From assembly GCF_000485595.1 (NCBI RefSeq), contig NW_014577707.1, forward strand, positions 84,149 to 110,053: DNA of 25,905 nt, in the 5' to 3' direction. Both the position numbers and the translations under genes were made by a program. The stretch is from Priapulus caudatus. Its lineage: Eukaryota > Priapulida > Priapulimorpha > Priapulimorphida > Priapulidae. A model generated the notes under the pieces. The model searched no databases. It worked only from the letters and a program-made list of their open reading frames with translations, and was not told the DNA's origin. Positions 1 through 25,690 of this stretch are shown here, in pieces. Position 1 is the stretch's first letter; each line of letters begins with the position of its first letter.

Positions 1-75
1 CCTTTGTTAGCTCTAGTACTATAGCCCTTCGCTCCTTCCTCCTGCGACGGAGCAAAGGGCTATACTATAGGATGA
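1..75. repeat. Short hairpin repeat (MITE-like), copy 1
   Basis: The 20-base string TAGCTCTAGTACTATAGCCC at 8-27 recurs identically at 25640-25659. Here it is followed by an inverted partner: bases 21-36 pair with about 52-67 (GGAGC, then GGGCTATA) with one G-T mismatch, giving a stem of about 16 bp. The same architecture, CTATAGCCC then GGGCTATAG, is seen at the other end of the window. I read this as a non-autonomous foldback or MITE-type dispersed repeat. The class is inferred and no coding capacity is present. Confidence 0.5.
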
Positions 76-509: not shown

Positions 510-960
510 AGTGATATGTGACACTACCAAGCACGACCTGACGTAAAAACATGACAGTGCCACTCGACATTGTGACGCGTGACGTTATCAACCATCATAA
601 TCTGACGCAGAAACATGGCAGTGCGACTCAACATTGTGACGCGTGACGTTATCAAACGCTTCATGATATGACGCAGACACAACGGTGCCTGTCGACATGG
701 TGACGCGTGACGTTATCAAACGTATCATGATCTGACGCAGACACGACGGTACCTGTCGACATTGTAAGCGTGACGTTGTCAAACGTATCATGACCTAAGG
801 CAGATACACGGCGGTGCCTGTCGACATTGTGGGCGTGACGTTATCAAACGTATCATGATCTGACGCAGACACGGCGGTGCCTGTCGACATGGTGACGCGT
901 GACGTTATCAAACGTATCATGACCTAAGGCAAAGGCATGGCGGTGCCTGTCGACATGGTG
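510..960. repeat. 64-bp minisatellite at the 3' end of the GPCR
   Basis: About seven tandem units of roughly 64 bp. Each contains GTGACGCGTGACGTTATCAA, then a CTGACGCAGACAC block, then GGTGCCTGTCGACAT. Copies differ mainly by substitutions, and neighbouring copies share variants, so this array looks genuine. Its gene-proximal edge (about 960) lies 30 bp from a possible splice donor (GTAAGC at 990-985) of the TM7 exon. If that donor is not used, the array edge encodes the receptor's last residues and its stop codon. Each unit has TGACGTTA, which resembles a CREB/ATF half-site; that role is speculative. Confidence 0.85.
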
Positions 961-1074
961 ATGTTGGACGCTGCTGACGACGAGGCTTACATATGCCCGT
1001 GAACGTCAGGTAGATGAACGGATTCACTGCGCTTTCCATTGCTGCTAGAAGCACGAAGATCACGACGTATCCGG
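917..1074 (-). CDS. GPCR exon 2: TM7 and tail
   Basis: Begins after TTTGCAG (1076-1075 is the AG) and takes one base from exon 1 to keep frame. It reads AGYVVIFVLLAAMESAVNPF and then IYLTFTG, a TM7 with the NPxxY motif intact. Reading on gives ICKPRRQQRPTSP and a stop at 919-917 inside the first 64-bp repeat unit. Alternatively the exon ends at 991 (ATAT|GTAAGC, phase 1), and the tail lies in a further exon outside the window. TM7 identity is firm; the 3' end is not. Confidence 0.75.
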
Positions 1075-4590: not shown

Positions 4591-4657
4591 ATATATATAT
4601 CAGAAGTAGATAATAGGTAATTCCCTATTATCTACTTCTGATGTATATATATATATA
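4591..4657. repeat. Long hairpin / palindromic element with TA arms
   Basis: CAGAAGTAGATAATAGG at 4601-4617 is exactly inverted at 4624-4640 with a 6-base loop, and (TA)n runs extend both outer arms. This perfect 17-bp stem plus AT arms is typical of a foldback MITE or a young palindrome. Confidence 0.75.
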
Positions 4658-6953: not shown

Positions 6954-8434
6954 CTAACATGACGTCTCCTTGGCCTCGCACGGCGCCTCCGAATCGAGAT
7001 CTGGGGCAAACTTGACGCGCGGCGCCGTGTCCCTGCGCTGGCGTGCAATCGGCGGCACCGCGCCGTGCTTGTCGTCCTCGCCAGGGCCAGGCATCATCAC
7101 GCTCGGTGCGCTGAGCGACGATGCCAGCACACCCTGCTCCCACACGCTGGCCAGCAACCGCGGCAGCTGCGCGCGCGTGTCGCTGCGCTCACCCGCGGCT
7201 CCCAACCTTTGACCTGCGCTGCCGCTGGTCTGGTGGTCATCGATGCACGACCTTTGACCTGCACCGCCGCTGGTCTGGAGGTCGTCGGCGCACGACCTTT
7301 GACCTTCGGCGCTCACACCCCCAACATTCTGGAGGTCGTCGGTGCGCAACCTTTGACGCTCGCCGCTACTAGCGCCGCTGTCGACGCGGTCTCGGGAGTC
7401 GACGACCGTGTCCGTCGTTGACTGAAGACTGGCCTGGTGCATCAGCATGCCGGCCGGCGGCCGCGAGTTGACGGTGTTGCCGCCCTGCTGGTGGAACTGG
7501 AGCAGGCCGAACTCGAGGTCGACCGTGCCGAAGTCGAACGCGACCCCGTCGTCGTCGCTGCCGGCCGCCGCCGCGTCCTCGTTTAGCTCGGTGATGTCGC
7601 TGACCGCTGACACACTGCGCACATCGTCGAGGCTCGCCGACAGGTTCTCCGAGTCGCGGTGGATGCGCCGCTGGATGAGGCCCTCGAGGATGCGGTAGTC
7701 GCGCTCCTCAGCATCCCGCAGCACCTCGGCAGCGGCGTTCCCGCCCGCCGACGCCGGCCCACCCACCGTCTCGGTGGTCGGGGCGTCGAGCGAGGGGCTC
7801 GCGGGCGGGCTCTCGGGGCTGCCGACGATGGTGAGAAGGCACGACGTGTCGATGTTGTCCGTGATGCTCGTGTAGTCGTGCCGCAGCTGGCTGAGCAGCG
7901 TCGTCACGTTCACGTTGAACGGCGTCTGCGCGCGAGCGCCCAAGCTGTCCGCGCGCACCATCGCCGCCGGGGTGGCCCCGCCCGCTGCAGCCGCGGCCGC
8001 GGCGGTTGGGATCGTCACGGACAACTCGAGCAGGTCGGCATGCGGCGGCGACTCCTGCTCGCCGTCCGCCGGCTGCTGCCTCGCCAGGCGGCGCTGCAGT
8101 AGGCTCGGCCGGCCGGGACCGCGGCGCGCCGGCACGTCCAGGTAGGGGGCGCCGGCGATCGCGCTGCGCGATCGCGCCGACACGGAGCGGCGCAGGCCGC
8201 CGCCGCCGGACGGCATTGACTGCCGGAGCGGCGTCGGAGTCTTCCCGCTCGCCGCGAGATCTGATCCGGACGACCAGGTCGCGGTCAACGTGGGCTTCTC
8301 TGCGGGCTCTTCCTGCGCTGCCCACCTCGCGCCATCTTCCTCCAGCGTCTGCTTTGCGTTGAAAGCACCGTCAGAGGCTGCGGCGACGACGTCTGCGGCA
8401 TAGCGAAATCTCTCCTCATCCTCAACAGTGCGAT
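6954..8434 (-). CDS. trpm: TRPM exon K: long C-terminal tail and stop
   Basis: 1,481 bases after CAATTTTTAG, encoding 492 complete residues, then TAG at 6956-6954. GC-rich and mostly disordered: a poly-Ala run (TAAAAAAAGG), Pro/Ser-rich stretches, a three-unit coding repeat, and one conserved island, [12 protein letters not shown], that matches the vertebrate TRPM1/3 tail (YTSITDCIDTRC). No kinase or NUDT9 domain. Antisense open frames over this exon are by-products of its high GC content. Confidence 0.92.
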
Positions 8435-11400
8435 CTAAAAATTGCAGGCAACACACTGTTACAGAGGTGCGGTGGTGGCTAAAAATTGCAGGCAACACAC
8501 TGTTACAGAGGTGCGGTGGTGGCTAAAAATTGCAGGCAACACACTGTTACAGAAGGCGGTGGTGGCTAAAAGATTGACAGGCAACACTACATGTTTACAG
8601 ATGTGCGGGTGGTGTGCTATAAACTGCAAGGCAGATCACACTGTATACCAGAAGTGCAGATGGTCGGCTAAAAACTGAGACAGCACACTGTTATCAGAGT
8701 GTGCGTGTGTGGGCTAAAAAATGAGGTCAGACACTATGTACAGAGTTGCACGGGGTGGCCTAAAACTGCAGGCAGCCCACTGATTACAGAGGTGGCGGTG
8801 GTGGCGAAAACTGCAGCAGCACACTGTTACAGAGGTGCGGGTGCTCGGCTAAAATGACAGGCCAGCACACTGTTACAGAGTGCGGTGGTGGCACTAAAAA
8901 TCAGCAGCACACTGTTACAGAGGTGCGGTGGTCGCTAAAAATTGCAGGCAGCACACTGTTACAGAGGTTCGGTGGCTGAAAAAAAAGCAGCATACTGTTA
9001 CAGAGGTGCGCTGATGGTCTAGAGGATCGCACATTTGCCTTCAGGCCGAAAGCTCTATCGTTCGAGTACGAGCGTGACTACTACCATTCCGTGATTTAGT
9101 AATCTGATGTAACCGTAATCTAACAGTACGGGGGAGGTACCACCCCTTCTCTGCTACAGCTGCTTACCATGATCTACAGGTAGGAGGTACCACCCCTTCT
9201 CTGCGACAGCTGCCTTACCATGATCTAACATGTACGAGAGAAGGTACCACACTTCCTCTGATCGCAGCTGAACTTACTCATGATCTACAGTTACTGAGGA
9301 GCGTACACCCTTCTGCTGCTACAGCTGTTTACATGATCTAACAGTCGAGGGAGGTACCACCCTTCTCTGCTACAGCTGACCCTTACTATGAATAAACGTA
9401 CGAGAGGAGGTACGACCCCTTCCTCTGCCTACAGATGGCTTACATGATCTAATCAGTAACGAGGGATGTACACCCTTTCTCTTACAGCTGCTATATTTTT
9501 CCAGTGAATCTGACATACGAGGAGGGTACCACCCTTCTCTGCTACAGCTACTTCACACCAATCTACAGTAGGGGAACCAACCTTCTCTGCTACAGCTATT
9601 ATCCGTGAACCTAACAGTAACGGGGGAAGTACGCACACCTTCTCGGTTACAGCTGCTTAATATTAAGACGAGTACGAGGGAATTACATCACCTTTCTCTG
9701 CTACAGCCTATCTTACCACAAATTTAACAGATACCGGAATGTACAACACCTTCTCTTGCTACACTACTTACCACAATCTAACAGTACGAGGGAAGGTACC
9801 ACAACCTCTCTGCTAAGCTATTTACCACAATTAAACAGTACGAGGGAGGGTCCACACCTCTTAGCATACTGCTACTTACCGCGGGGCATATCTAAACAGT
9901 AGAGCGGAGGATACACCACCTTCTTTGCTACAAGCTAATCACCGTGATCTAACAGTACGGGAGGTACCCAACCTTCTCTGCTACAGGCTAATCTTACCAA
10001 ATTACAGTAGAGGAGGTTACCACAACTTCTCTGTACAGCTACTTATCTGATCTAACAGTTAGGGGAGGTACCATTCCTTCTTTGCTACAGCTATTATACA
10101 CAATCTAAAAACAGTACGAGGGATGTACAACACTCGGCTACAGCACTAATACGTTGAATTGGACAGGTACGGGATACACCAAACTTCTCTGCTACAGACG
10201 TACCGTGATCTAACTTACGGGGAGGTACTATCCACTTCTTGTAACAGTACTTTAACCGTTGATTTACAGTACGAGGGTGAGTACCTACCCCTTCTCTGCT
10301 ACAGCGACTTACCATAGATCACACAGTACCAGGAGTAACACCCTCGTGCCTACAGCCTAACTTACCGATGATCTAACAGTACGGCGGAGTACAACCCTTC
10401 TCTGCTACAGCTACTTAACGCTGACTTAACAGGTATTGAAGGAGGTACCTATCCTCTCTGCTACGCTGCCTTCCACAATCCTAACAGACCTGAGGGAGTA
10501 CACACACCTTACTTTGCCTACAGCCTACTGTACCGTGAATTAATTACTGCGGAAGGTACACCTCCTTCTCAGCTACAGTCTACTTTACCATGATATACAG
10601 TACGGGAGCGATACCAACTTCTTCGCTACAGTACTTACCGCTGAATCTTAACATTACGGAGGGATGTGACATACCCTTCTCTGCTAAGCTACTTTAGCCT
10701 GATCTAAACAGGTTACGGAGGGGAGGTACCACACCTCTCTGCATACAAGCTACTGACCGTGAAGCTAACAAGAATGAACACCACAATTCTACGGGGAGGT
10801 ATCCACCCTTCTTGCCTACAGGATCTTGACCAAATGATCTAACAGCTACGGGGAGTACACCCCTTTCTTTGTACAGCTACTTTACATATCTAACAGTACG
10901 GGGGAGGTACCACCCCTTCTCTGCTACAGCTACTTACCATGATCTAACAGTACGGGGGAGGTACCACCCCTTCTCTGCTACAGCTACTTACCACAATCTA
11001 ACAGTACGAGGGAGGTACCACCCCTTCTCTGCTACAGCTACTTACCACAATCTAACAGTACGAGGGAGGTACCACCCCTTCTCTGCTACAGCTACTTACC
11101 ATGATCTAACAGTACGAGGGAGGTACCACACCTTCTCTGCTACAGCTACTTACCGTGACCTGACAGTACGGGGGAGGTACCACCCCTTCTCTGCTACAGC
11201 TACTTACCGTGATCTAACAGTACGGGGGAGGTACCACCCCTTCTCTGCTACAGCTGCTTACCGTGATCTAACAGTACGGGGGAGGTGCATGCGGAGATCC
11301 TCTCCGTCATGTAGGTGTTCATAAAGCGGTGGATGCAGGCGAGCGAGTTGTTTGTCGTCATCGACAGCTCCTCGAGCTTCGACAGCCGATAATCGATCGT

Positions 11401-14400
11401 CTGCATCGTCAGCTTGATCGATCCCTCGCGATTGCCCATGTCCAACACGCGCGCACTCATGTTCTCAACCCTATGGAGGCAGGAAAGCACCGCGTCATCA
11501 TCAATGGCATGCATGCGTGCATCCACACGTGCATCCCTACTTGTATACCAATATGTAATCATCACCTTGTGTACTTATTAAGAACCAATGCATGTGTAAT
11601 AGGTGATTTAACATTAATTATCTGCACGTTAAAGTCTACCATTCCTTATAATAATAATTTATTAGAGAAAACCATGACATCAAAGCAAAACAAATAAATC
11701 CCTCTTCCCCAGAAATGGCATTTAATCACCACGTTTACCAATCTATTCGAGTTAATTAGACCAATTCATCTTTAACGCAGTGGCGTAAGGTTTCATACAT
11801 CAAAGGAATTGATTACATGCCAGACTAGGTAAGACTGGCTGTTAAGAAACGCTGATAGCAGTGTAAGACGAATTTAATGGTAAGAGATATCGATTATTTG
11901 TGTTTTTTGCACTGTAGAGCCTAAAGAGAAAAGCTATAATCAATGTGCACAGTTAGTTAGTTGGATTGACATACCATTAATGCAGAATAGAGTATCTAAA
12001 CTGCTGCTCTGCGTGTCATGACAACGATTCAATCACTTACCTTTCATTAATGAGACCTATCCGCTCTTCCTGTGAGTTGAGCTGACTCATTGCTCTCTCA
12101 CGGAACAGGTCTTCCAAACACTCCTCCTCAAAGTCGTGTACCTTCTCCACATCTTCCTCATCAAGAAATAGCTCTGCAATGGCGCAAATGTTTCTTTCAG
12201 CGAAATGCAAGACATTTTATATCTAGTTCAATTAGGAGATAAGAATTCGCAAGGATATAAAGAAGAGGTCTGAACGGTAGGATACTATCAGGAACACGCA
12301 ATATTAACACTGATATTGTTCCTACTATGTACTCCCAATGCTATGATTAAAATAAATCCAGTATGTATAATTTATTCAACATTAAAATGTATAACCACAG
12401 ATCTATTCCGATTGAAGGGCTTCTATTTGCAATTTATTTGTAAATGAAAGTGTCAATGACACTGCAGCTCACCACAAAAAAGGACACAAATGAGTGAGTG
12501 AGAAGAAGTCAGTTTTAATTGAGCAACCATCGACGTACATTATAGAAACAAAGAGTATATATGGGAGAACTCCCATTATATACTCTTGATAATTATGTGT
12601 AATTTTTTATGTGAAAATAAATGTTTGAGATGTGAGTCTGAGATGTGGGCGAGTGATGGTGTTACACCTAAATGATCGCCATTTAACGTTTTTATAATAT
12701 TCAGATTTAGGCACTGCCTAAAAGCGGCCCGATGTGTAACGTGTAAGATTGAGAGGATATGCTTATTTCACGTAGCTGCTATATACCACGTGACAATGGT
12801 GTTTCCCTGCCCATAACACAACTGTTCAAAGGTTAATTGGTTGCATGGAAGTGTTTACTTCATATGAGTTTTTCTAGGCAGTAGCACACGGTTGCCATCT
12901 GTATATCGCAATAATAATTTATAAACCAAAATGAATCACAATTTGTGACGGTAGATGGCGCTATACCCGCTTTGATGTTTCTTAGCGATGGCGTTCGAAA
13001 TAAATAGGTTATGCTGCGTTCCGACATGTTTTGTAAAACTTTACTCTAATATAGACGTTTTATCGGCAGGGTGGAGAGGAAATACCAATTTTGCATTAAA
13101 GATATTGTCAATGAAATCTTGTAAAATGAACCAGACGAGTGTGACACCACAGACTGTTATCTGCGTGTCTATAACATAATATGCAATATAATTGCCAAAA
13201 CCTACCTAATTTGCATAATATTTTTTTAAATATCAAAACCCCTGGCCCTTATTCATTCACATACCAAAAAAGAGCAAAATCCGTTGAACCTGAACTGACC
13301 AATGGCAATTCCCATTTTTGCCAAAATATTGCCGTGGCTCGAAAGTACGTCGACTGGCGTGCTCCAAAATAGGACGTTCAATATGGGAGCATAGCAGTAA
13401 CAACTATACCCAATTTCAAACATGTGGGTCAAACAGTTCCTGAGTTATCGTTGACCGTAGCCAAATGTTGACGGAAAGACGGACTGACAGACGTACGACG
13501 GACGACGACCCATGGCAATAGCTCATCTTGACGATGTCAGGGTGAGCTAAAAATCACGAATGGTTTTTAATAATGACTAATTAAACCTACTTATAATTAA
13601 ACCCATGTGAATACACGTTGATGATCAAACTTGTTGGAATTCAATGGTTTTCCGTGTAGAATGTTAAGGATGATGCAGTCAGGTGAGTGATCATCAGTGA
13701 CGGCCACGTTTATTGCTTAATTTCGCTTTTAATGTATTTATTAATTCAATGCACACTGTGCGCATTACAGGTGCTATTCCAGCACATACTTAGGCTACAG
13801 TCGAATGCTGTCTTCTGTCCCTTATAGCGTCGGTTGCAGTACTTGACGAGCTGGTACATGTGGCAGAGTATGATGAGAGGGGGCGCCAGCACTGGCCGTT
13901 GTTCATACTCGAGGATCACGCTGTAGCGCTGAAACTTCCACACTTGCTGTGCAACAGCATTCACCTTTGTGAAGGTTGAACTGCAATGGCACAGATTATG
14001 TCATCAGACATCAAAGAAAAGCATGAAAGAGCCACCAACACTGAATCTACAACACTGATCAACATACACTTTGGATCTCAAGCAGAGCACCAATCTGTCT
14101 CATTTCTACGTATAAATAAGTTGGGCAAATTACGCAGACGTCAAAAAATAAGAATTTCACTGGTTGATTAATAAAATAAATTTTGATTATTTTTTACAAT
14201 TAATTAGAAAACAATTGTGCAGAAGGTTCGGGTCACTCACTTGAACCGGGCAATGAGTAGGTTGACTAGAAGCACGTTGGTCACTAGGAGGTAGGTGGCC
14301 ATCACTGCAGGAACGATCCACTGACCGGGGACACACGACGGAAGAGGCCGCCCATCCTCTCCTAGTGTGCCCTCCTCTCCACACTCAGCTGCAAGCAGAG

Positions 14401-17400
14401 GCACAGAATTATGTCAGTATTGGTCGTGTACTCTCAAACATGTACATAAGGGTCACTTGAACATGTTGAAGGAAATCAGGAAAAGCCTTCGAAGAGTATC
14501 ATGTATAGGGAAAACCTTTCTATAGAGGTGGCTTCACTACGTGATTGCTATGCTAGGGAAACGTCGAAATCGTCCTATATAGACAGGTGTCTATTCTTTA
14601 GATGTGACTAATAGCACAGATTTGACTATAGGGAGAATGAGTGGTGACGTAGAACGTTTCGAATGTACTAAAAACACAACTGATTAACAACTCAAAAGGA
14701 ATATTTACCTAAAACGTTTCGAGGACAGCATCTAAATACACAGTCAATGTATGTATCGCTGAGGCTAACATGCAACTGGTAAGAAGGGCCAAGGAGTATG
14801 AGAAATGGGGCATCGAAGAAACACAGGCGATAACAGTATTATGTGCTAACAGTGAATCCCGGGTTGAGAACGAGCGAGTGAATAGTAGACGTACGGTTGA
14901 TGTCGCCAGCAAACACCTCCCCGTAGATCATCCAGTAAGGCTGGTAGAAGACGTCGCGTGCGAGCGTCCAGCTCGGCGGCGAGTCCGGATATCTGATCGC
15001 CTGCCTCACGACGCCAAAGCTCATCAGCACGACGCACATGATGACGACGAACACGCACATGTCCACTACCTGTGCAACAACATACAACATGTAATACGCA
15101 CATGTGCACTACCTGCGCAACAACATACAACATGTAACACACACATGTCCACTACTTGCGCAACAACATACAACATGTAACACACACATGTCCACTACCT
15201 GCGCAACAACATACAACATATAATACGCACATGTCCACTACCTGCGCAACAACATACAACATGTAATACGCACATGTGCACTACCTGCGCAACAACATAC
15301 AACATGTATACGCACATGTCTGCTGCCTGTGCAAAAACATACAACATGTGGTACGTACATGTCCACTACCTGCGCAACAACATACAACATGTAATACACA
15401 CATGTCCACTACCTGCGCAACAACATACAACATGTAATACGCACATGTCTGCTGCCTGTGCAACAACATACAACATGTAATACGCACATGTCTGCTGCCT
15501 GTGCAACAACATACAACATGTGGTACGTACATGTCCACTACCTGCGAAACAACATACAACATGTAATACGCACATGTCCACTACCTGCGTGACATGTGCG
15601 TATTACATGTTGTATGTTGTTTATGTTGTTGCACAGGCAGCAGACATGTGCGTATTACATGTTGTATGTTGTTGCGCAGGTAGTGGACATGTTCGTACCA
15701 CATGTTGTATGTTGTTGCACAGGCAGCAGACATGTGCGTATTACATGTTGTATGTTGTTGCACAGGTAGTGGACATGTGCGTATTACATGTTGTATGTTG
15801 TTGCGCAGGTAGTGGACATGTGCGTATTACATGTTGTATGTTGTTGCGCAGGTAGTGGACATGTGTGTGTTACATGTTGTATGTTGTTGCGCAGGTAGTG
15901 GACATGTACGTACCACATGTTGTATGTTGTTGCACAGGCAGCAGACATGTGCGTATTACATGTTGTATGTTGTTGCGCAAGTAGTGGACATGTGCGTATT
16001 ACATGTTGTATGATGTTGCGCAGGTAGTGGACATGTGTGTGTTACATGTTGTATGTTGTTGCACAGGCAGCAGACATGTGCGTATTACATGTTGTATGTT
16101 GTTGCGCAGGTAGTGGACATGTGCGTATTACATGTTGTATGTTGTTGCGCTGGTAGTGGACATGTGTGTGTTACATGTTGTATGTTGTTGCGCAGGTAGT
16201 GTGTACGTACCACATGTTGTATGTTGTTGCCCAGGCAGCAGACATGTGTGTATTACATGTTGTGTCTGCTACCTGCGCAACAACATACAACATGTAATAC
16301 ACACATGTCTGCTGCCTGCGCAACAACATACAACATGTAATACGCACATGTCTGCTGCCTGTGCAACAACATACAAGATGTGGTACGTACATGTCTGCTG
16401 CCTGTGCAACAACATACGCCACCTGCACAACAATATACAACATGTAATACGTATATGGCTACTACCTGTGCAACTATATACAGTGTTAAAAACGTGATGC
16501 ACGCACGTGATGCATGCTTTACAGCCACTAGTGCAGCAACGTTTCAACACGTGATGTGTACACATCTGCCACCAGTACAGCAACACTTCAACACGTGATG
16601 TGTACATGTCTGCCACCAGTGCAGCAACACTTCAACACGTGATGTGTACGTCTGCCACCAGCGCAACAGCAGCAACACTTCAACACGTGATGTGTACATG
16701 TCTGCCTCCAGTGCAGTAACACTTCAACACGTGATGTGCGCATGTCTGCCACCAGTGCAGTAACACTTCAACACGTGATGTGTACGTCTGCCACCAGCGC
16801 TGCAGCAACACTTCAACACGTGATGTGCGCATGTCTGCCACCAGTGCAGTAACACTTCAACACGTGATGTGCGCATGTCTGCCACCAGTGTAGTAACACT
16901 TCAACACGTGATGTGCGCATGTCTGCCACCAGTGCAGTAACACTTCAACACGTGATGCAAGCATTATCAGCGTGATTCAACTGTTATATTATTTCAACTG
17001 CTATATTGTGTCACTCCATGTTAGATTAATTTGCTGAAGCCAGTGTCACTACATGTGAATTTTGAAATTAAGTCAGTTCTTTGATGACGAAAAGACGTTA
17101 CAATTGCTGCCAATTACAATACCAACACAAATGCCAGCTCACCATTTTTCCTATCATTGTCACGTAAGGTCCCAAGTACTTGTTGATATTAAATATGTCC
17201 AGGATGCGAATATACCAGAAACCAACATTAAGACAATATATAACGCGGCCAGTAGTGTGTGTACTCGGATCCACTCTGAAAATACACAAAGCAAAAATGC
17301 TACCGGTAGAACATTCTTACAGCGACAACGAATCACGTGAACATAGATCACATGGAAAATAGGAAATTGCAAATTTCTGATATTTAAAACAGTATTAGCA

Positions 17401-20400
17401 TTTAATTACACTCATGTAAATAGGTTTAATATTTAATAGTGATAATAATTTGGATGTTGATAATGTAATAGATTATAGCAATAGTTTGATTGACAGTTTA
17501 AGAACCTTACCGTAAACCGACGCCAATTGTAAATAATACCACAGCTAGACAGTCGAATATATTCCACTTTGAAATCAACCATACCCGTATTTTCTGAGCA
17601 AAATTTGTTGGCTCTGATTGGATTATCTACAGAAAAACAAGAAGTAGATTATAACATATGCCACAAACAATTTTACAAGTCAAAAACATACTACAATGAG
17701 TATATTTAAAACACCTGCATACATTAAATTCAGTTCTGTATTTGTTCGTGCATGTGTTTCGCTGGCATTACTATAGTGGAACTCTATGCCTCGTATGATA
17801 CTGTAGAAAATGTCCGATGAAAATGCAAGTGTATTTCTGGATCATCACCTCTCTAATCTTTTCCAGACTGAGTGTCCACACATAGGCCATGACGTAGTAT
17901 TCTAGCCAAGACGGGTCTGGCTCCATGCGCACCAGCACCGTGTAGTTAAACATAACCATGAAAATGAGATATGCAAACTGCAAAAAAACGAACACAGCCA
18001 TTGCTGTAAAATTGGTATTTGCCGAAAGATACACACCAGGCCATCACGCACGAACAGCATTAGTTGCTGTTAGAATGATGCAAACGGCTGCACGCAATAA
18101 CCAGAGGTACACAACCTTTAAACTAGACAGAGGGCACTCACAGAAAGTGCATACCTCCGCGAGCGTGTAACATGTATGTGTATAACAGCTGGCTCGCTGC
18201 TGGCTGCTGCTGGCTGCTGCTGACTGAATGCCCTAAGGCGAGCTGCTGCTGAATCGATCACGCGAACACTAGTGGCTACACACACACACACAAAGGCGAG
18301 CTGCTGCTGAATCGATTGCGCGAACACTAGTGGCTACACACACACACGAACAGACACACGCGAGCGATTGCATGACCTCCCTGCAACTCCGTTGCGCGGA
18401 GGTAACAACCATCAAGAAACAGAGGTCGTGTGATATAATGCCAGGCAATATTGATGCTGGGCCAAAGTGATGTCCTCCTTTCGTTTTGCCCCCCCCTCCT
18501 CACCTGCCTCTTACAATGTCCATTTCTTTCTACACTCCTAGCTACTTCTTCTGCATGGTCCCCACCCGCCTTTGTATACCCTAGCTTTCACATTTTTTCC
18601 CAGCTCTCTTTCTCATTTACGACTCCCTCCCCTAGCCTCTGCCCCTCTTCTCTTCCTCTTTCCATCCCTCCCTCTTCTCTCTTTCACTTTCTGTTCTTCC
18701 TAATCCCTCTACACACCCATTTCCCATGAGGCCGAAAAGGTCTAATAACAACAGACGACACAAGTAAGGACAGCAAGAGTTACTATACATAAGTGCCTTA
18801 ACATGCTTGCTGTGACGAACATAAGTTACTATACAATCAACGACAACTCACTCGCGAACTAAAGTAACCTACACTAGAAAAAACTAAACTAAGGAACTAA
18901 ACTAAGAAACTAAAGTAACCAGGCTTCACCTCAGCGTTGTGTGTGTTGCTCACACTCACCGTGTATATCCAGAGAGACATGATACCAGATTGCGTGGCAC
19001 AGCTTTGCTGTTGATCCTGAGCGTTGCGCGCGGATAAGACGCGCAGTTCCGCGGGATATGCGCACGCGACCGCGGGGATGTTCAAGTATGAAGCATTGTC
19101 CGCAGTGGAGACGTGCGCCAAATTCGAGGCCCGGCGCACGTACGTCTCCACAGTGGTCAGCGGATGGTCTGTAGTTTTAGATAACACTGAAGACTTAGTT
19201 TGTTCTAAATAAGAACTATCGACAGCTAAATAAGAACTATCGACAGCTAAATAAGAGTAATATACAGACCTTTGAATTTCTTGACAGTCAGTCAAAGGGC
19301 TTATTGCGGGTCCATTATGCAGAGCTTCCAATTGAAATGGCCCATGAAATTGTCAAGTGGAATTGTGTTTTTCGGAACCCCAAAGAAAATGTCTCCCTCT
19401 TACATGCACCCCCTCCCTGATCAATCACGCATTCAGGCGTAAACAATAACAGAGATGAAATTGTGTTGAGTTTGTGGCTCTTGACGCACGTGCATTGGCG
19501 TACAAGACTGTTGAAAGCACAGGCCCTTGGAACGTCTCAATACAAATAAATATTCACACAATTTTTCACAATGATCGACCGCCTGTGTACAAAATAGGTG
19601 AACGTGTGTGATACATATACAGTTAGTACTTACTGTGACATATCCGTGAAGAACTGACACCACTAAATTGGTAAAATGTTCCATGCACCTTAAGAAATGC
19701 TGAGAAATTACGAGGTTATCATCGCAGAACTCCCGAACACCGTACGTCACAAAGCTATATGTAAACAAACACACGTGTTGCGAGGTGCCTGCCTCTGATA
19801 TCCATTTCGAGGCCCGCTAAGCCAAGCATAAAGCGCATGGTGCAAGACGTCACACACACAGCTAGTACGTTCATTGCCTAAAACAATCGAGTAGCGCGAT
19901 TAGGGATTTTCGGAATTATTTAATTTGAAGAAAAACTTCAATGTTCAATGAATGACGCACTCATTCACTTGCGACAGCGAGTGAAAATGCCGAAAATTTT
20001 CCACTTCGATGCGAAATGCATCGGCCGGGCATTTCATTATTTACGAAAAGTAAACAGGCTGGCGAAAGACAGTAGGTACAGTAACAGGTCACGTCGATGA
20101 CGCCCCATTCATGCCCATCAACGGAGAAGGCGGGGGGGTGCTTATTCTGATTACGGAGATGCGAAAATGCGATAGAAGGACGTAGCGCAGTGCGCTAAAC
20201 AGCGTGTTATTTTCGTATTTGTGCCAAACTCTATAGTAGGAAACCGTTCTAACATAGCAGAATGCCCTAGTTCCTGAGATTGGCGATTTGGTGGTCCAAT
20301 GGGTCCCCACCTATAAAAATATAAAAGACTTGGTGTGGCATAGGCTGTGCATTGGAAGAACACAAAGTGTCAATCTCGCGCGCCTCGTCCATCATGGCGC

Positions 20401-23400
20401 GCATTCAGCGTCAGAAAGCAGTGTACATCACTCGCGTATTGCTCACACTCACGTACGTGTACATCCACAGACTTGTACATCATTGGCTATTGCTCACACT
20501 CACACGTGTACATCCAGAACTTGTACATCATGCGTAATTGCTGTCACACTGAACGACCGTCGTACATCCAAAGCCTTGTACATCATTGCGTAATTGCTCA
20601 CTACTCAACACGTGTACATCCCAGACTTGTACATCCAATCCGGCGTATTGGCTCACACTCACCGTGTACATCCAGAATCATTGTACCATCATGGCGTATT
20701 GCTCACACTTCACCGTGTAGCATTCCACGAACGTTGTACATCATGCTATTCGCTCACAGACTCCACCGTGTACATCCAGAACTTGTACATCATGCGTATT
20801 GCTCACACTCACCGTGTACATCCAGAACTTGTACATCATGCGTATTGCTCACACTCACCGTGTACATCCAGAACTTGGTGATGGGCGACGTGTAGAACTC
20901 GTGCACCTTCTTGCCGAGCCGCAGCGGCGTTGGCTTCTTCTCCGTCAGCGTCTCGCTGAACCTGCACTCGTCGTGCGCCGACGTCTCGGGCGTCGCCACG
21001 CTGCTCAGTACAGTCTTCTCTGAGATGACTCCCTCCTGCCGACGAACGACAACGCGTAAGAGCCAACGACAGCGCGTTAGACCCGACGACAGCGCGTTAG
21101 AGCCGACGACAGCGCGTTAGAGCCGACGACAATGCGTTAGACCCGACGACAGCGCGTTAGAGCCGACGACAATGCGTTAGACTCGAAGACGACGACGCAG
21201 CTTCATGTGACGACGCATTAGACTCGACAACGACGACGCAGCTTCACGCGACGACGCGTTAGCGCCGACAACGACGACGCAGCTTCACGCGACGACGCGT
21301 TAGCGCCGACAACAACGACGCAGCTTCACGCGACGACGCGTTAGCGGCCCGACAAGCGATGACGCATGCTACACGGCGACGACGTGTTCACGCGCGACAA
21401 GCCGATGACGCATGCTCACTGCGACCACGCGTTAGCTCGCCGACAACCGATTGACCTCAGCTTCACGCACGACCGTTAGCGGCCGACAAGGGAACGATGA
21501 GCGGCAGCTTCACTGCGACGACGCGCATAAGCGCCGACAACTGACGGGAGCGTCAGCTCACGCGACGGACGCGTAGCGCGCGGACGAGACGGATGCCCGC
21601 AGCGTTCACGCAACGACGCCGTAGCGCGACAAACGACCCAGCAGCTCCACGCGTACGACGCGGTTAGCGCTGCGACACACAACGGACGCAGCTTCAGCGC
21701 GACGACGCGTTAGCGCCGACAACCGATGACGCAGCTTACGCGACGACCGCGTTAGCTGCCGACGAACGGACCGCGGGCAGCTCATCCGTCGGGGAGGCGA
21801 GCGTGTTAGCGGCGCGAACTCAACGACGCAGCTTCACGCGACGACGTATACTGCGCGCCGACCAACACGACGCAGCTTCCGCGACGTACGCGTTAGAGCG
21901 ACAACGATGACGCCGCTCTCACCGCGACAGACGCCGTAGCGCCGACCACGAGACGCAGCTCACGCGGACGACGCTGTTAGCTGCGCGACTAACGGATGAC
22001 GCCGCTCTCATTCGAGCGACGCGTTAGCGCCGACAACTAAGCGCCGCAGCTTCACGCTACGACAAGCGTTACGCCGACAAACAAACGACGTCAGCTTCAC
22101 GCCGACGACTGCGTTAGCGCGCGACTAACCAACGACGGGCATGCTTCACGCAATCATACGCGTTAGCGCCGACAACGAGAGACGCCGCTTCACGGACGGA
22201 CGACGTGTTAGCGCCGACAACAACGACGCAGCTTCACGCGACAACGCGTTAGCGCCGACAACAACGACGCAGCTTTCACGCGACAAGCGGTTAGCCGACC
22301 ACAACGATGACGCAGGCTTCACGCGACGAACGCGTTAGCCGCCGACCATAGATGACGCAGCTTCACGGCGTACGGGACGCGTTAGCGCCCGCGACAAAGC
22401 CGGTATGACGCTAGCTTCCAGCGACGAAACGCGTTAGGCCGACAACGCTGACCAGCTTCACGCGACGACGCTCTAGCTGCCGACAACTGGATGACGCAGC
22501 TTCACGCGACGACGCGTTTAGCGCCGTTACAAACCGATGCCGCAGCTTCACAGCGAACGACGTTTAAGCGCCGATCAACGAACCGGCAGCTAGCCTCACG
22601 CGACGACGCGTTAGGCAGCCGACGACAACGCAGCTTCACGCGACGACGCGTTAGCGCCGACGACAACGCAGCTTCACGCGACGACGCGGTCAACCACAAA
22701 CACTGATCCGTGGAGATCAGCGAGAATTTCAACCCCGCCAGGGAGCACACACAACCCCACCCCCCAGAAGGCGCATACCATGCAAACACTCAGTAGACAG
22801 TATCCCACCCCTCGAGGATAGAACACACCTGTCAACTGCACATGTGTAAGTGAATCGTAGCACGGGCTATTCTCATCCATCATGTCTATTCCTGAAATCA
22901 CCTGTCGCCCTATCTTCGCTTAGCAGATCACATAATCACGTGAATGTGCAGTGAAACGGCCATAACTGCCACAAACGTGTATTACCTATACCTTACAGTT
23001 ATGGTGGGGAAGATAAATATGTAGACAGTGCTCAGAATACGTTACGAGATGAGGGACTGAGTTCGGCCTAGAGTATATATATGGCCTAGAGTGCCATATT
23101 ATTAATTTCACATGGTGACATACTGGTTTCTACCTACTATTCTGCAGATAAAATCAACGTTCATTTAGATGAAAGATATTTCGTATTAAAGGGGTATCAA
23201 CCAAAGTTAACTCCTCTAAGCAGAAGATATCCATAAACCTACAATATTCAGGTCGAAGAAATGCAAAACTGAATAAGCAAACGAAACCGGAATCAAACAG
23301 GCAGATAGGAGAAATCATGCACTACTAGTTTTCGCTTCCACACGGTTACACAGCCACACGGAAGCAGTTAATGCCAACGAACAAGTGGGATGGCATTTGA

Positions 23401-25403
23401 CGGCCGCGTCTAAAACGCACCAGCTTAAACTAAGAATCAACGGAAAAAATATTCAGTCGGCAAAAGATGATGATAATACGTCGGCACAAACATCCGCAGT
23501 ACTAGCTGTTGAAGGATGTATGTCTTTTTAACCCTGTACGCGAAGCGAATATGACGAGTCAGCTATAAAAAAACATGCACGGCTTTAGGTATGCAGCTAT
23601 TCATAATTACGTGTATACATCCTAAACACGCCTGACTACCACAAAGCTCAGCAACAAACCATGGGCAGAAACAGGAGGGTCCCCTTGCAAATCATACCAC
23701 TTCACAACCATGAGTGGAAACTACTAGACTCACTCCATACAAGACTGAAACTCTGATACAAACGCCAACAGCCAAACCTCGCTGTAGGGGAGAGAAGAAT
23801 TTTGACATGTCTTGAGTATATATACATTCTTAAGAATGCCACCTTTTTTTTTCACACTAGCCCACCTGTGCCCCCGCCCATGGGCTGTTCTAGCACTGCT
23901 TTTAACATTAGCGCTGGGGAAATCTGCCAAACACTCACACCGATACACACAGCAAATTCAACTCGCCTTCTTGTGACCATGGGAGTGAAATGTGGAAGCT
24001 ACGCCCGCATTAGACGGGTTAGCTTCTGTATTTTTCCACTCCCATCCACCACTGTTGTCCTGCAACTGACTACTGGCTGACTGCAAAACGACAAATACAC
24101 ATGGGCGAGGCAATCACCATACCATCGCTGCTATAGAAACAGCGAGGCAGCAAGTGAGGACCTGTCATCGACATCTCGTTATTTCACCGGTAACTACACG
24201 CCGAGTTCTTTTTCTCCTTCTGACGAATTTGTCACGGATTTCTAAGACAAGAATTGAATGTAAAAACCGAAAATATCATTATTTTGCTACTTGTTAATAA
24301 AATCTATACACTCGTTGTCTTTTGTGCATGAATGTTAAAAATATCAACAGTAATTTGCTACTTTCTTGAATTTAAGGAGAAATTATGTACATGGAATCCT
24401 TGTAGGAGGCATTTTGACATGAGAAAGGTAATACCCTAACCCTAATGGTATACCTATTAGTAAACTAGTTTTTGTGTTATAATTCAATGAGTTGACTACG
24501 TCAGTTAACTACTTTAACCAAGCGAAATCAGGTACCGCACTAACCTGCACTTACTGACCATGCATATACACATATATGTGACAACAGGAAATAAACTGAC
24601 ACGACTGAACTTCCAAACATGCTACATAAAACATGAACAGATATAAGCGATTATTAAAAATCTGCATTGGCAGATTTGTGACATTTGTGTGCATTGCCCA
24701 AAAAACGCACGATTCAATGTGTAATTGCTAATTGTTAATTAATTAAAACGTTATTTTTATTCACTCCTGAACATATGTATAAAACTCTACATACACATGT
24801 TCCTGCGTATATTACATTTCCATCTACGTAAGTAAGCAGCCTTAGTAACTCATCAATAAATATTTAGGATATCTCCGTAGCATAAATTAATATTCAAATT
24901 CAGAAATGATTAGCAAGAAAAATGTGTAGACATAAACAAATTATGTACTCCCTTAATATACTCATCACCCTCTTATTTTATCTTCCTCTTTTTACAGCTA
25001 AATTTGATTAACAAACTTTTTTCTTCACTAATCAACTCATTAAGAGATTTTTAGTCTGCTATCATTTTTATTGTCCCATATTATAAACATTATTAACTCA
25101 GTACAATTAGAACGTTATCTCACTTATTAATTTTTACAGTTCATCACTAATGCCATTCTATCCGGCAGTGAGTGCTTGCGATTTCTTCCCAAATCCAGGC
25201 AGCACACTAACCACACTTCTCTCATTATCGACACCTACTTCATCCATCAGGTCCTCTGGGTTTTGGCTGCTCGCCTCAGAGGAAGTAGAGTCCTCCTCCA
25301 GCTCCAGGTGCTCCTCCTCTGTCTGTGGCATCAGCTGCAGCTCCTCTCTTGTCTTGAACTCGAGCATGAGGATTGTGGGAGGCATGAGCAGTCCCAGCAC
25401 GAC
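6954..25403 (-). CDS. trpm: TRPM1/3-type cation channel, C-terminal 11 exons
   Basis: A tetrameric plasma-membrane non-selective cation channel of the TRPM family; the window holds its last 1,018 residues. Exons (gene order): 25403-25239, 21035-20859, 17977-17849, 17626-17511, 17275-17143, 15069-14895, 14388-14241, 13980-13790, 12173-12041, 11470-11262, 8434-6954. All introns are GT-AG, phases agree at every junction, and the total of 3,057 bases is an exact codon multiple. Approximate fragment residues: pre-S1 LEFK helix 10-20, S1 109-132, S2 140-158, S3 177-194, S4 206-225, S5 241-262, pore GEVFAGDIN 290-298, paired pore-loop Cys, S6 323-347, TRP box WKFQRY near 355, coiled coil 415-500, then a long low-complexity tail with [12 protein letters not shown], a TRPM1/3 signature. 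There is no alpha-kinase domain, unlike TRPM6/7. The N-terminal homology region lies outside the window. Confidence 0.95.
7206..7363 (-). repeat. In-frame coding repeat in the TRPM tail
   Basis: Three tandem units of 54, 45 and 45 bases encode [33 protein letters not shown] and [15 protein letters not shown]. All are multiples of three and keep the frame, so the array is tolerated in a disordered tail. It is not related in sequence to the intronic arrays. Confidence 0.9.
8435..9015 (-). repeat. 44-bp minisatellite carrying the intron 10 acceptor
   Basis: Tandem units spaced exactly 44 bp near exon K (unit starts 8435, 8479, 8523). On the gene strand each ends in TTGCCTGCAATTTTTAG, which is the tract and AG actually used for exon K. 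TGTAACA, about 21 bases upstream, could serve as a branch point. The unit nearest the exon is perfect, the interior (about 8560-8900) is full of small indels, and the far end becomes cleaner again. Confidence 0.9.
9016..9107. other. Short unique segment between two arrays
   Basis: About 90 bases of non-repeated DNA, the only part of intron 10 not made of acceptor-type or donor-type repeats. It may be the original intron core. Confidence 0.5.
9108..11287 (-). repeat. 54-bp minisatellite carrying the intron 10 donor
   Basis: About 40 units of 54 bp. On the gene strand each unit contains the exon J tail (ACCTCCCCCGTACTGTTAG, then ATCACG) followed by GTAAGTAGCTGTAGCAG. GTAAGT is an optimal 5' splice site. 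Units at 10869-11287 and at about 9115-9215 are nearly perfect; those between are riddled with single-base indels. Because the unit is 54 bp, the plus strand has an open frame with an 18-residue period, which I reject as a gene. Reading through the genuine donor meets an in-frame TAG after four codons. Confidence 0.92.
11262..11470 (-). CDS. trpm: TRPM exon J: C-terminal coiled coil
   Basis: 209 bases after CTCCATAG. It reads [27 protein letters not shown] and IHRFM, which is the TRPM assembly coiled coil. The last 25 coding bases (encoding TSPVLLDH) and the donor CACG|GTAAGC are one unit of the 54-bp minisatellite, so the array has intruded into or grown out of coding sequence. Phase 1 agrees with exon K (GAT, Asp). 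Confidence 0.9.
11471..12040 (-). other. TRPM intron 9
   Basis: A 570-base intron from GTAAGT to CATAG. AT-rich, with no array, RNA gene or further exon seen. Confidence 0.7.
12041..12173 (-). CDS. trpm: TRPM exon [10 protein letters not shown] region
   Basis: 133 bases after [29 protein letters not shown] matches the TRPM KVHDFEEQC stretch, and the exon ends at EERIGLINE. The donor AG|GTAAGT is phase 2, giving Arg across the junction. Too short and phase-broken to stand out as an open frame; found by homology. Confidence 0.93.
12551..12587. repeat. Near-perfect hairpin in intron 8
   Basis: AAGAGTATATATGGGAG (12551-12567) is inverted at 12570-12587 with a two-base loop and a single one-base bulge. 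A very tight foldback of this kind often marks a MITE or a recent palindrome. Confidence 0.7.
13200..13556 (+). mobile_element. Interspersed SINE-like repeat (probable)
   Basis: The stretch ends in a GACGGAC-type run (about 13471-13510), then a 14-bp stem hairpin (TAGCTCA...TGAGCTA, 13519-13549) and a short A-rich tail. I associate this combination of GACGGAC run plus TAGCTCA/TGAGCTA hairpin with widespread non-autonomous repeats of marine invertebrates. The 5' boundary is a guess. Confidence 0.45.
13519..13549. repeat. Terminal stem-loop of the interspersed repeat
   Basis: TAGCTCATCTTGAC pairs with GTCAGGGTGAGCTA (two G-T pairs) around a GAT loop. It is a 14-bp stem immediately before an AAAAA tail, as expected of a 3' recognition structure for mobilisation. 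Confidence 0.7.
13790..13980 (-). CDS. trpm: TRPM exon H: TRP helix and post-TRP region
   Basis: 191 bases after CATTGCAG. It reads [20 protein letters not shown] (TRP domain with WKFQRY) and [17 protein letters not shown], then KYCNRRYKG. This wording is closer to the arthropod TRPM proteins I know than to vertebrate ones. The donor A|GTATGT is phase 1 and builds the Lys of KLFLDEED with the next exon. Confidence 0.94.
14241..14388 (-). CDS. trpm: TRPM exon G: pore loop and S6
   Basis: 148 bases after GCTTGCAG. With one base from exon F it reads PECGEEG, a loop with a second Cys (SSVCPGQW), then [20 protein letters not shown] (S6). The two cysteines match the paired pore-loop cysteines of TRPM channels. 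S6 ends NLLIARFN, with Arg where relatives usually have a small hydrophobic residue. The donor GTGAGT is phase 2. Confidence 0.94.
14389..14894 (-). other. TRPM intron 6
   Basis: A 506-base intron splitting the pore loop between exons F and G (GTACGT...TTGCAG). No repeat array or other feature was seen. Confidence 0.7.
14895..15069 (-). CDS. trpm: TRPM exon F: S5 and pore helix
   Basis: 175 bases beginning right after the most gene-proximal minisatellite acceptor (TTGCACAG). [20 protein letters not shown] is S5; [15 protein letters not shown] is the pore helix and filter, with the Glu of GEVFA kept as in divalent-permeable TRPM1/3/6/7 channels. The donor CC|GTACGT is phase 1. The exon's first 13 or so bases are part of the 43-bp repeat unit. 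Confidence 0.95.
15058..15590 (-). repeat. 43-bp minisatellite carrying the intron 5 acceptor, block 1
   Basis: About 12 units. Each unit on the gene strand is a TATTACATGTTG stretch, TTGTTGCGCAG, then GTAGTGGACATGTGCG. The last part is the first coding segment of exon F (VVDMC), so each unit repeats a complete 3' splice site plus exon head. Two variants alternate: TGCGCAG|GTAGTGG and TGCACAG|GCAGCAG. Clean throughout. Confidence 0.93.
15591..16264 (+). repeat. 43-bp minisatellite, inverted block 2
   Basis: The same 43-bp unit and the same two variants, but in the opposite orientation, about 15 units over 674 bases. Switch points are at about 15590 and 16264. Here the splice-site-like sequences lie on the plus strand, so these units offer no acceptor to the TRPM transcript. 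Blocks 1 and 2 together form a long inverted repeat. Confidence 0.93.
16265..16490 (-). repeat. 43-bp minisatellite, block 3 (original orientation)
   Basis: Five or so units back in the block 1 orientation, becoming more divergent toward 16490, where the 44-bp subfamily begins. Confidence 0.85.
16491..16960 (-). repeat. 44-bp divergent subfamily without the AG
   Basis: About ten units of 44 bp (CACTTCAACACGTGATGTG... then CTGCCACCAGTGCAG on the plus strand). They align along most of their length with the 43-bp unit. On the gene strand the splice position reads GCACTG|GTGG instead of GCGCAG|GTAG, so the AG is lost. Most units have an ACACGTGAT E-box-like core. Confidence 0.85.
16961..17142 (-). 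other. Intron 5, donor-proximal unique part
   Basis: Non-repeated AT-rich DNA between the 44-bp array and the exon E donor (GTGAGC at 17142). Nothing further was seen. Confidence 0.6.
17143..17275 (-). CDS. trpm: TRPM exon E: S4 and S4-S5 linker
   Basis: 133 bases after [28 protein letters not shown] is S4, and [14 protein letters not shown] is the S4-S5 linker, nearly identical to TRPM1/3. It ends ATG|GTGAGC in phase 0. Confidence 0.95.
17511..17626 (-). CDS. trpm: TRPM exon D: S2-S3 linker and S3
   Basis: 116 bases after TTCTGTAG. It reads [17 protein letters not shown] and then [19 protein letters not shown], the TRPM SEP-QKI-VWL linker and S3. It ends in phase 2 at the donor GTAAGG. Confidence 0.93.
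17849..17977 (-). CDS. trpm: TRPM exon C: S1-S2
   Basis: 43 codons starting after [29 protein letters not shown] completes S1, and [17 protein letters not shown] forms S2, matching the TRPM LEKIRE motif. The donor GAG|GTGATG is weaker than the others, but the phase and the continuation into the next exon are exact. Confidence 0.93.
17978..18234 (-). other. Intron 2, acceptor-proximal part
   Basis: Begins with the strong tract TTTTTTTGCAG of exon C. It contains CTG-rich triplets near 18190-18225. No exon was seen. Confidence 0.5.
18235..18345. repeat. Tandem duplication of about 56 bp with CA tracts
   Basis: Two copies of a unit starting AAGGCGAGCTGCTGCTGAAT and ending in (CA)n. They differ at two adjacent bases (CA versus TG before CGCG) and in CA-tract length. 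Confidence 0.85.
18460..18728. repeat. Long pyrimidine-rich tract
   Basis: About 270 bases, overwhelmingly C and T on the plus strand (runs of CCCTCC, TTCTCT, CCCCCCCC), hence purine-rich on the TRPM transcript. Such tracts can form triplex DNA. No gene is supported within it. Confidence 0.75.
18946..18973 (-). repeat. Stray copy of the exon B donor unit
   Basis: On the gene strand this reads TCTGGATATACACG|GTGAGTGTGAGC, differing at one position from the exon B end and donor (TCTGGATGTACACG|GTGAGTGTGAGC). It lies about 1.4 kb from the array at 20390-20877 and is embedded in an open minus-strand frame (19331-18897). It could be a dispersed repeat unit or the remains of a duplicated exon end. 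Confidence 0.7.
19105..19151. repeat. Inverted repeat with MITE-like ends
   Basis: GTGGAGACGTGCGCC (19105-19119) faces GGCGCACGTACGTCTCCAC (19133-19151), a stem interrupted by a 4-base insertion. GTCTCCAC with a CACG-type neighbour resembles the ends of the MITE at 6604-6921, so this may be a degenerate or internally deleted relative. Confidence 0.5.
19210..19251. repeat. 21-bp tandem duplication
   Basis: TAAGAACTATCGACAGCTAA plus A occurs twice, exactly adjacent, and a third partial copy follows (TAAG). Confidence 0.85.
20390..20877 (-). repeat. 46-bp minisatellite carrying the intron 2 donor and exon B tail
   Basis: About ten units, spaced exactly 46 bp near exon B (starts 20782, 20828, 20874). 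On the gene strand each holds CAAGTTCTGGATGTACACG, the last 19 coding bases of exon B, followed by GTGAGTGTGAGC, the donor used. Units near exon B are perfect, the interior (about 20530-20770) has many indels, and the far edge is moderately clean. Confidence 0.92.
20859..21035 (-). CDS. trpm: TRPM exon B: linker to start of S1
   Basis: 59 codons, phase 0 at both ends. The end reads [18 protein letters not shown], aligning to the TRPM EFYxAPIxKFW start of S1. Acceptor CGTCGGCAG; donor TACACG|GTGAGT. This exon is boxed in by two minisatellites: a 20/41-bp array abuts its acceptor, and a 46-bp array contains its donor plus its last 19 coding bases. Confidence 0.92.
21039..22690 (-). repeat. 20/41-bp minisatellite at the intron 1 acceptor
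   Basis: It starts with about seven 20-bp units (21041-21180), then passes into 41-bp units up to 22690. On the gene strand the 20-bp unit is CTAACGCGCTGTCGTCGGCT and the genuine acceptor is TCGTTCGTCGGCAG, so the array copies the segment just upstream of the AG, including CTAAC, a good branch-point match. The AG itself is not repeated. Very rich in CpG and ACGCGT. Clean at 21041-21345 and 22600-22690, noisy between. Confidence 0.92.
22691..25238 (-). other. Intron 1, donor-side remainder
   Basis: About 2.5 kb of AT-rich intron running to the exon A donor (GTAGGT at 25238). It holds the hairpin at 23979-24044. I found no additional TRPM exon, though a short phase-0 exon in the poorly conserved acidic linker could be missed. 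Confidence 0.5.
23979..24044 (+). repeat. 66-base imperfect hairpin
   Basis: ATGGGAGTG (23979-23987) pairs with CACTCCCAT (24036-24044), GGAAGCTA with TAGCTTC-, and GCCCG with CGGGT around a CATTAGA loop, with an internal loop midway. Size and shape would suit either a microRNA precursor or a foldback element. No homology to a known microRNA is claimed. Confidence 0.45.
25239..25403 (-). CDS. trpm: TRPM exon A: pre-S1 linker
   Basis: The acceptor TGGTACAG precedes 25403. The 55 codons open with [20 protein letters not shown], matching the TRPM PPxILxLEFK stretch before S1, and continue as an acidic Glu/Ser-rich linker. The chosen donor is GAA|GTAGGT (phase 0). A second phase-0 donor, GTG|GTTAGT, lies about 30 bases further downstream and would add ten residues. 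Confidence 0.85.
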
Positions 25404-25639: not shown

Positions 25640-25690
25640 TAGCTCTAGTACTATAGCCCGCGTACAGTTGCCGCAGGGCTATAGAACATT
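25640..25690. repeat. Short hairpin repeat (MITE-like), copy 2
   Basis: Shares the 20 bases TAGCTCTAGTACTATAGCCC with 8-27 and again has a GGGCTATAG inverted partner (from about 25676). The loop differs entirely from copy 1. Same orientation as copy 1. Confidence 0.55.

Follow-up and report, generated by a model that had tools for sequence, protein, structure and literature searches.

In a 25,905-nucleotide stretch of the Priapulus caudatus genome (the window; contig C647 of the assembly, positions 84149-110053), the minus strand carries the C-terminal part of a TRPM channel gene (6954..25403) that appears from its sequence to be of the TRPM1/3/6/7 type. Five of the six large intronic tandem-repeat arrays in this gene lie no more than 10 base pairs (bp) from an exon-intron junction, in introns 1, 2, 5 and 10. 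We consider that these five arrays are probably junction-anchored minisatellites of the kind described as "mirages" in lancelets, which apparently extends that kind to another animal branch and to a wider range than we found in print.

Tandem arrays at exon-intron junctions

Arrays were defined by merging rows of Tandem Repeats Finder output, and we chose as the six large ones those whose merged rows reach 3.6 copies or more. They are listed here with the orphan copy of one unit; E1 to E11 denote the exons of the predicted gene model.

21046..22688, minus strand: intron 1 array of 20-bp and then 41-bp units, adjoining the E2 acceptor with 9 bp between
20422..20877, minus strand: intron 2 array of a 46-bp unit, at the E2 donor
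18946..18973, minus strand: orphan, matching the core of the 46-bp unit together with its donor at 96% over 28 bp
16524..16957, minus strand: second intron 5 array, with an unrelated unit of 44 bp; its nearest junction, the E5 donor, is 185 bp away
15053..16417, minus strand: intron 5 array of a 43-bp unit, about 31 units, at the E6 acceptor
9117..11286, minus strand: intron 10 donor-side array of a 54-bp unit, at the E10 donor
8435..9017, minus strand: intron 10 acceptor-side array of a 44-bp unit, at the E11 acceptor

The distance to the nearest junction is 10 bp for the 20/41-bp array and 0 bp for each of the 46-, 43-, 54- and E11-side 44-bp arrays. Three units contain exon sequence. The 46-bp unit consists of 19 bp of the E2 tail, the donor GTGAGT and intron sequence, and its exon part encodes KFWMYT, aligned to KFWFYT of TRPM3; the 43-bp unit joins the acceptor to 17 bp of the E6 head, which encode VDM, aligned to IDM of TRPM3; in the 54-bp unit, 25 bp from the end of E10 precede the donor GTAAGC/T and intron sequence. 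The E11-side 44-bp unit ends in TTTTTAG, the last AG being the E11 acceptor, and the 20/41-bp units are made of pre-AG-like segments and CTAAC-like motifs with few AG sites. When exon ends were aligned blind to the 150 intron bases beside them, exon copies were recovered at three of the five junctions that bear arrays, with scores of 25, 19 and 18, and none at the 44-bp (E11) or 20/41-bp array junctions.

An earlier sequence-only reading had placed five arrays with unrelated units at exon edges in four of the ten introns, and had assigned a donor plus exon tail to the 54- and 46-bp units, an acceptor plus exon head to the 43-bp unit, an acceptor to the 44-bp unit and a pre-AG segment with CTAAC to the 20/41-bp units. 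Both descriptions agree with our findings, as does its contention that random placement would hardly produce five junction contacts. When the six arrays were placed freely over the introns, at least four of the six fell at junctions in 0 of 200,000 trials. A more conservative null, in which each array was kept in its own intron, gave P = 5e-6 for five of six, and again P = 5e-6 for five of eight when two smaller intron 2 arrays lying away from junctions (18235-18347 and 19205-19256) were added. Both the free-placement and the same-intron results are uncorrected for the gene having been singled out as striking.

The proportion of an intron taken up by arrays reaches 96% in intron 10 and 86% in intron 5, and is 15% in intron 2 (437 of 2881 bp). 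Within the window, the only matches of any unit outside its own array were the 46-bp orphan and a chance match of 13 bp. The orphan, 1.5 kb from its array in intron 2, may be what is left of a longer array, or an insertion may have split it off. Searching the assembly with window positions 8400-9400, which cover the 44-bp array completely and the 54-bp array in its first units, returned 10 matches, all at the TRPM locus (one candidate region was scored). A dispersed element or satellite as the source of the 44-bp and first 54-bp units was rejected on that confinement. In the 43-bp array, a block of about 15 units (about 15594-16263) is inverted and flanked on both sides by blocks in gene orientation, so that intron 5 contains a large inverted repeat. 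We do not favour a mirror-image read artefact for this block, because the unit variants follow a different order in the two arms (85% match over 310 bp, a value without a baseline).

Splice sites within the arrays

Splice sites were scored with a generic donor/acceptor matrix. By this measure, decoy sites match the true site in four of the five junction arrays. The E10 donor scores 9.0 vs 9.6-10.5 for six further clean donors in the 54-bp units, and the E2 donor (10.1) is equalled by two further donors in the 46-bp units, also at 10.1. For the E6 acceptor the score is 7.4 vs 7.1-9.2 in 14 of the 15 further gene-orientation acceptors of the 43-bp units, the remaining one reaching 4.4, and the E11 acceptor (5.4) is among 23 sites above 4 in the 44-bp array. 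Splicing at an inner site would shift the reading frame (43-, 44- and 46-bp units) or, by inspection, meet an in-frame TAG just after the E10 donor (54-bp unit), so we infer from this coding need that the exon-proximal copy is the one used in splicing. Five arrays in one gene represent an extreme case and offer a natural test of how the spliceosome chooses among many equal copies.

Proposed origin of the arrays

Because the exon piece within the 46- and 43-bp units encodes residues conserved with TRPM3, the exon is the older sequence and the array the derived one. For these two arrays the exon is therefore the source and the array the copy, and both were seeded across the junction; a border-crossing duplication is likely for the 54-bp array as well.

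We propose that each array began with a short tandem duplication crossing the exon-intron border, an event that the 46- and 43-bp units show, that is likely for the 54-bp array, and that we would extend to the 44- and 20/41-bp arrays. Slippage, unequal exchange or break repair would then have amplified the duplication towards the intron. Selection on coding and splicing could hold the exon-proximal copy and thereby anchor the array, leaving the inner copies to drift. The pre-mRNA most likely splices correctly, and exon definition would pick the copy beside the coding exon despite equally strong inner copies.

Which junctions acquired arrays may depend on breakage or recombination where exon edges are rich in GC, as a correlation within this one gene suggests. 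GC content at third codon positions (GC3), computed after dropping 30 bp at each exon end, is highest in the four array-bearing exons E2, E6, E10 and E11 (0.85-0.97 vs 0.44-0.80 in the other seven), with an exact permutation value of 1/330 for GC3 and 8/330 for overall GC. One could speculate, although we think it rather doubtful, that minisatellites have arisen repeatedly at splice junctions in distantly related animals, most of all beside GC-rich exons: where GC content changes between exon and intron, breaks or recombination would duplicate the border, the array would turn into a hotspot of recombination, and the GC3 of the neighbouring exon would rise through biased gene conversion. If the GC3 link holds elsewhere, it would tie the birth of arrays to recombination and make the mechanism testable.

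Observations that weigh against junction seeding

Several observations count against our interpretation. The 44- and 20/41-bp units hold no exon sequence and therefore show abutment, not seeding. The E10 tail inside the 54-bp unit falls beyond the well-aligned TRPM3 domain, so the E10 splice site could alternatively have shifted into a pre-existing 54-bp array. The large array at 16524-16957 touches no junction, and the decoys of the 20/41-bp array are weak, the best listed scoring 5.8 vs 6.4 for the true E2 acceptor. The GC3 link was noticed post hoc in a single gene.

Tests on the rest of the assembly came out null or unclear. The sample comprised 22 loci with 111,788 bases, some chosen at fixed positions and others because they adjoin the window or gave matches; it contained 26 arrays covering 8.9% of its bases, and in the window 7056 of 25,905 bases lie in arrays. 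Among 24 arrays (L011-L027), no clear excess of units with splice sites over shuffles was found: two units had a donor scoring at least 8.5, two at least 9.0 and two at least 9.5, with 1.6, 1.2 and 0.7 expected, and 3, 1 and 0 units had an acceptor scoring at least 7, 8 and 9, with 2.2, 1.1 and 0.4 expected. Genome-wide, pairs of the perfect donor 8-mer AGGTAAGT spaced 20-50 bp apart numbered 152 vs 304 for the reversed-pattern control, which is likely inflated by common satellite, GGAAT-like repeats. At array-free junctions, exon-like sequence alongside was detected at P <= 0.05 in one of 28 (15 TRPM, 13 myosin), about the chance level.

Outside TRPM, the junction comparison used two myosin gene pieces totalling 9.5 kb, from 88 myosin exon matches. 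They hold three repeat regions, two of which touch donors. In one piece (L043, 980-1019; C484:20579-20618), a two-copy 20-bp repeat straddles an exon end, the first 20 intron bases equalling the last 20 exon bases at 16 of 20 positions; it is possibly an incipient border duplication, and the paralogue (L044) has no such 20-bp repeat at the same exon end. In L044, an AT-rich array begins one base inside the intron. Both donor-touching myosin repeats are weak and could have arisen by chance. At another locus (L040), the donor of a probable coiled-coil exon lies upstream of an array without touching it. Junction arrays are thus not present at every gene. Four further arrays carry repeated AGGTAAGT in their units and are candidate junction arrays (C249:193.8-196.1k, C198:852098-852204, C43:206979-207084 and C130:370.7-371.5k).

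The sequence-only reading had postulated a process that seeds tandem duplications at exon-intron boundaries, for instance slippage or break repair biased to the junction, or selection that tolerates repeats only where splicing survives. The seeding stands for at least two arrays (46 and 43 bp), in which conserved exon sequence lies inside the unit. A general bias of arrays toward junctions across the genome is so far unsupported, and with tests that are small or crude it is neither shown nor excluded. The TRPM case by itself is no evidence for a genome-wide process.

Alternative explanations

The quality of the sequence bears on whether uncorrected long-read gap filling made or displaced the arrays. 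In four of them (44, 54, 46 and 41 bp), interior blocks mostly contain 8-23% indels (extremes 3.4 and 32.5) with sharp edges, and the indels of the 46- and 41-bp arrays are mainly insertions. The noisy part spans 20422-20789 in the 46-bp array, which has two clean units beside the exon, about 9226-10846 in the 54-bp array, which has seven, and about 21330-22630 in the 20/41-bp array; the interior of the E11-side 44-bp array is likewise noisy. We infer that this pattern stems from unpolished long-read gap filling. Because of these indels, the copy numbers and interior letters of the four noisy arrays are only approximate; contact with the exon does not depend on them. An artefact as the whole explanation was rejected and seems hardly credible to us, since the exon-proximal blocks have 0% indels in all five junction arrays, the 43-bp array has only 0-4.4% per block, and such noise alters length and letters, not the presence of an array or its contact with an exon.

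Arrays born inside introns might instead have grown up to the exons, with a splice site later recruited from the array. The large array share of introns 10 and 5, the two units without exon sequence and the position of the E10 tail outside the well-aligned domain would all fit such a course, which we regard as possible though doubtful, given that the 46- and 43-bp units copy conserved coding sequence and that intron 2, of which arrays fill a minor part, nevertheless has its array at the donor. Chance in a minisatellite-rich genome, from which one striking gene was singled out, is distinctly unlikely. The array content of the sampled loci and the lack of a clear splice-site excess among their arrays speak for it, and about 20,000 genes, an assumed number, leave an event of 5e-6 per gene possible; exon coding sequence and a splice site inside the units, however, need no statistics, and the free placements never approached the observed arrangement.

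Intron gain of the type proposed by Rogers, in which tandem duplication of AGGT-bearing exon segments creates an intron, has been put forward for lancelet globins (PMC3087553), and the 43-bp units carry CAG directly followed by GTAG, readable as a 3' plus a 5' splice site. It is nonetheless very improbable here: intron 10 has unrelated units at its two ends, where the same segment should supply both, the arrays at the two ends of E2 are also unrelated in unit, and the units lack matches elsewhere in the window beyond the two noted above. Equally hard to accept is a function in splicing, whether as backup sites, in recursive or dual-specific splicing, or through a hairpin of the inverted 43-bp block. 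The many strong repeated sites and the inverted block would suit it, and dual-specific sites are described in human UBC tandem repeats (PMC10809524), yet the inner sites shift the frame or run into the in-frame TAG.

Comparison with lancelet mirages

The exon-boundary minisatellites that the sequence-only reading had mentioned for amphioxus do exist and are the lancelet mirages, described for the globins BflGb6 and BflGb9 and for Adh3 (PMC3087553), with a TnC mirage cited in PMC3902484. Like the TRPM arrays, mirages are tandem units that span the intron/exon border, contain splice signals and affect donor as well as acceptor sides; they are reported not to disturb splicing, and their mechanism was called unclear in the 2010 globin paper (PMC3087553). 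Length polymorphism, even of somatic origin, is also a trait of mirages. In the cases described there they involve one or two junctions per gene, whereas the TRPM gene has five, and their units measure 150-160 bp in the lancelet globins and 10-72 bp in lancelet Adh3, compared with 43-54 bp in TRPM (PMC3087553).

Exon sequence together with the adjoining splice site, as in mirage units, is present in the 46-, 43- and 54-bp arrays and absent from the 44- and 20/41-bp arrays. Repeated splice signals occur in four of the five, the AG sites of the 20/41-bp array being few and weak. The host is not a cephalochordate, which we treat as a matter of range and not as defining the mechanism.

Other known repeats resemble the TRPM arrays in part. 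In lancelet PGBD5, 60- and 108-bp repeats abut or overlap splice sites in the same manner, although with 2-7 copies in contrast to about 10-40 in the TRPM arrays (PMC3902484). The dual-specific splice sites of human UBC are likewise AGGT-type sites in tandem units, but the UBC repeats are coding units, whereas those of TRPM are mostly intronic (PMC10809524). In the available portions of the open-licence literature, we found no border-spanning minisatellites outside lancelets. The TRPM arrays suggest that such minisatellites are not confined to lancelets.

The TRPM gene model and neighbouring features

The predicted model has 11 exons, 10 introns and 1018 codons plus stop. Exons were located via reading frames and their edges refined at GT-AG borders, the model being derived from the genomic sequence only. 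All ten introns are GT-AG and phase-consistent, and the joined exons form a single frame of 1018 amino acids with no internal stop. The predicted exons are as follows.

25403-25239, minus strand: exon E1
21035-20859, minus strand: exon E2
17977-17849, minus strand: exon E3
17626-17511, minus strand: exon E4
17275-17143, minus strand: exon E5
15069-14895, minus strand: exon E6
14388-14241, minus strand: exon E7
13980-13790, minus strand: exon E8
12173-12041, minus strand: exon E9
11470-11262, minus strand: exon E10
8434-6954, minus strand: exon E11

The alignment to TRPM3 covers residues 1-520 of the predicted protein (E = 2e-158). A search of the assembly (385.2 Mb, 2952 contigs) with the TRPM protein gave 13 matches, 11 of them at the TRPM locus and the other two weak (23% and 39% identity). 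In a TRPM tree of 33 rows, comprising the window sequence and 32 sequences chosen from 120 listed matches, without lancelet rows, the window sequence groups with molluscs and two further rows (support 96/90). The coding sequence of the last TRPM exon contains an in-frame 45-bp repeat of 2.2 copies (7205-7305).

The gene beside TRPM encodes a vasopressin/oxytocin-type receptor. The best five of its 14 matches have 59-39% identity, and the nearest named ones are the annetocin receptor of Lingula anatina (38%) and gastropod receptors. No lancelet receptor was among the named entries of these 14 matches, in sources that presumably include lancelet proteins. By the receptor matches and the TRPM tree, the sequence looks spiralian. 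One array lies in this gene:

548..961, minus strand: array of a 64-bp unit, whose start lies about 30 bp into the intron that follows a putative receptor-gene donor

It is a possible sixth junction-near array; no splice site was seen in its unit by eye, unscored.

Two further features were noticed by eye. Downstream of the TRPM gene, a palindrome whose 17-bp arms flank a spacer of 6 bp (4601-4640) resembles a small transposable element or a hairpin. One 15-bp motif, CTAGTACTATAGCCC, is present at each end of the window (13-27 and 25645-25659) and is probably a dispersed repeat.

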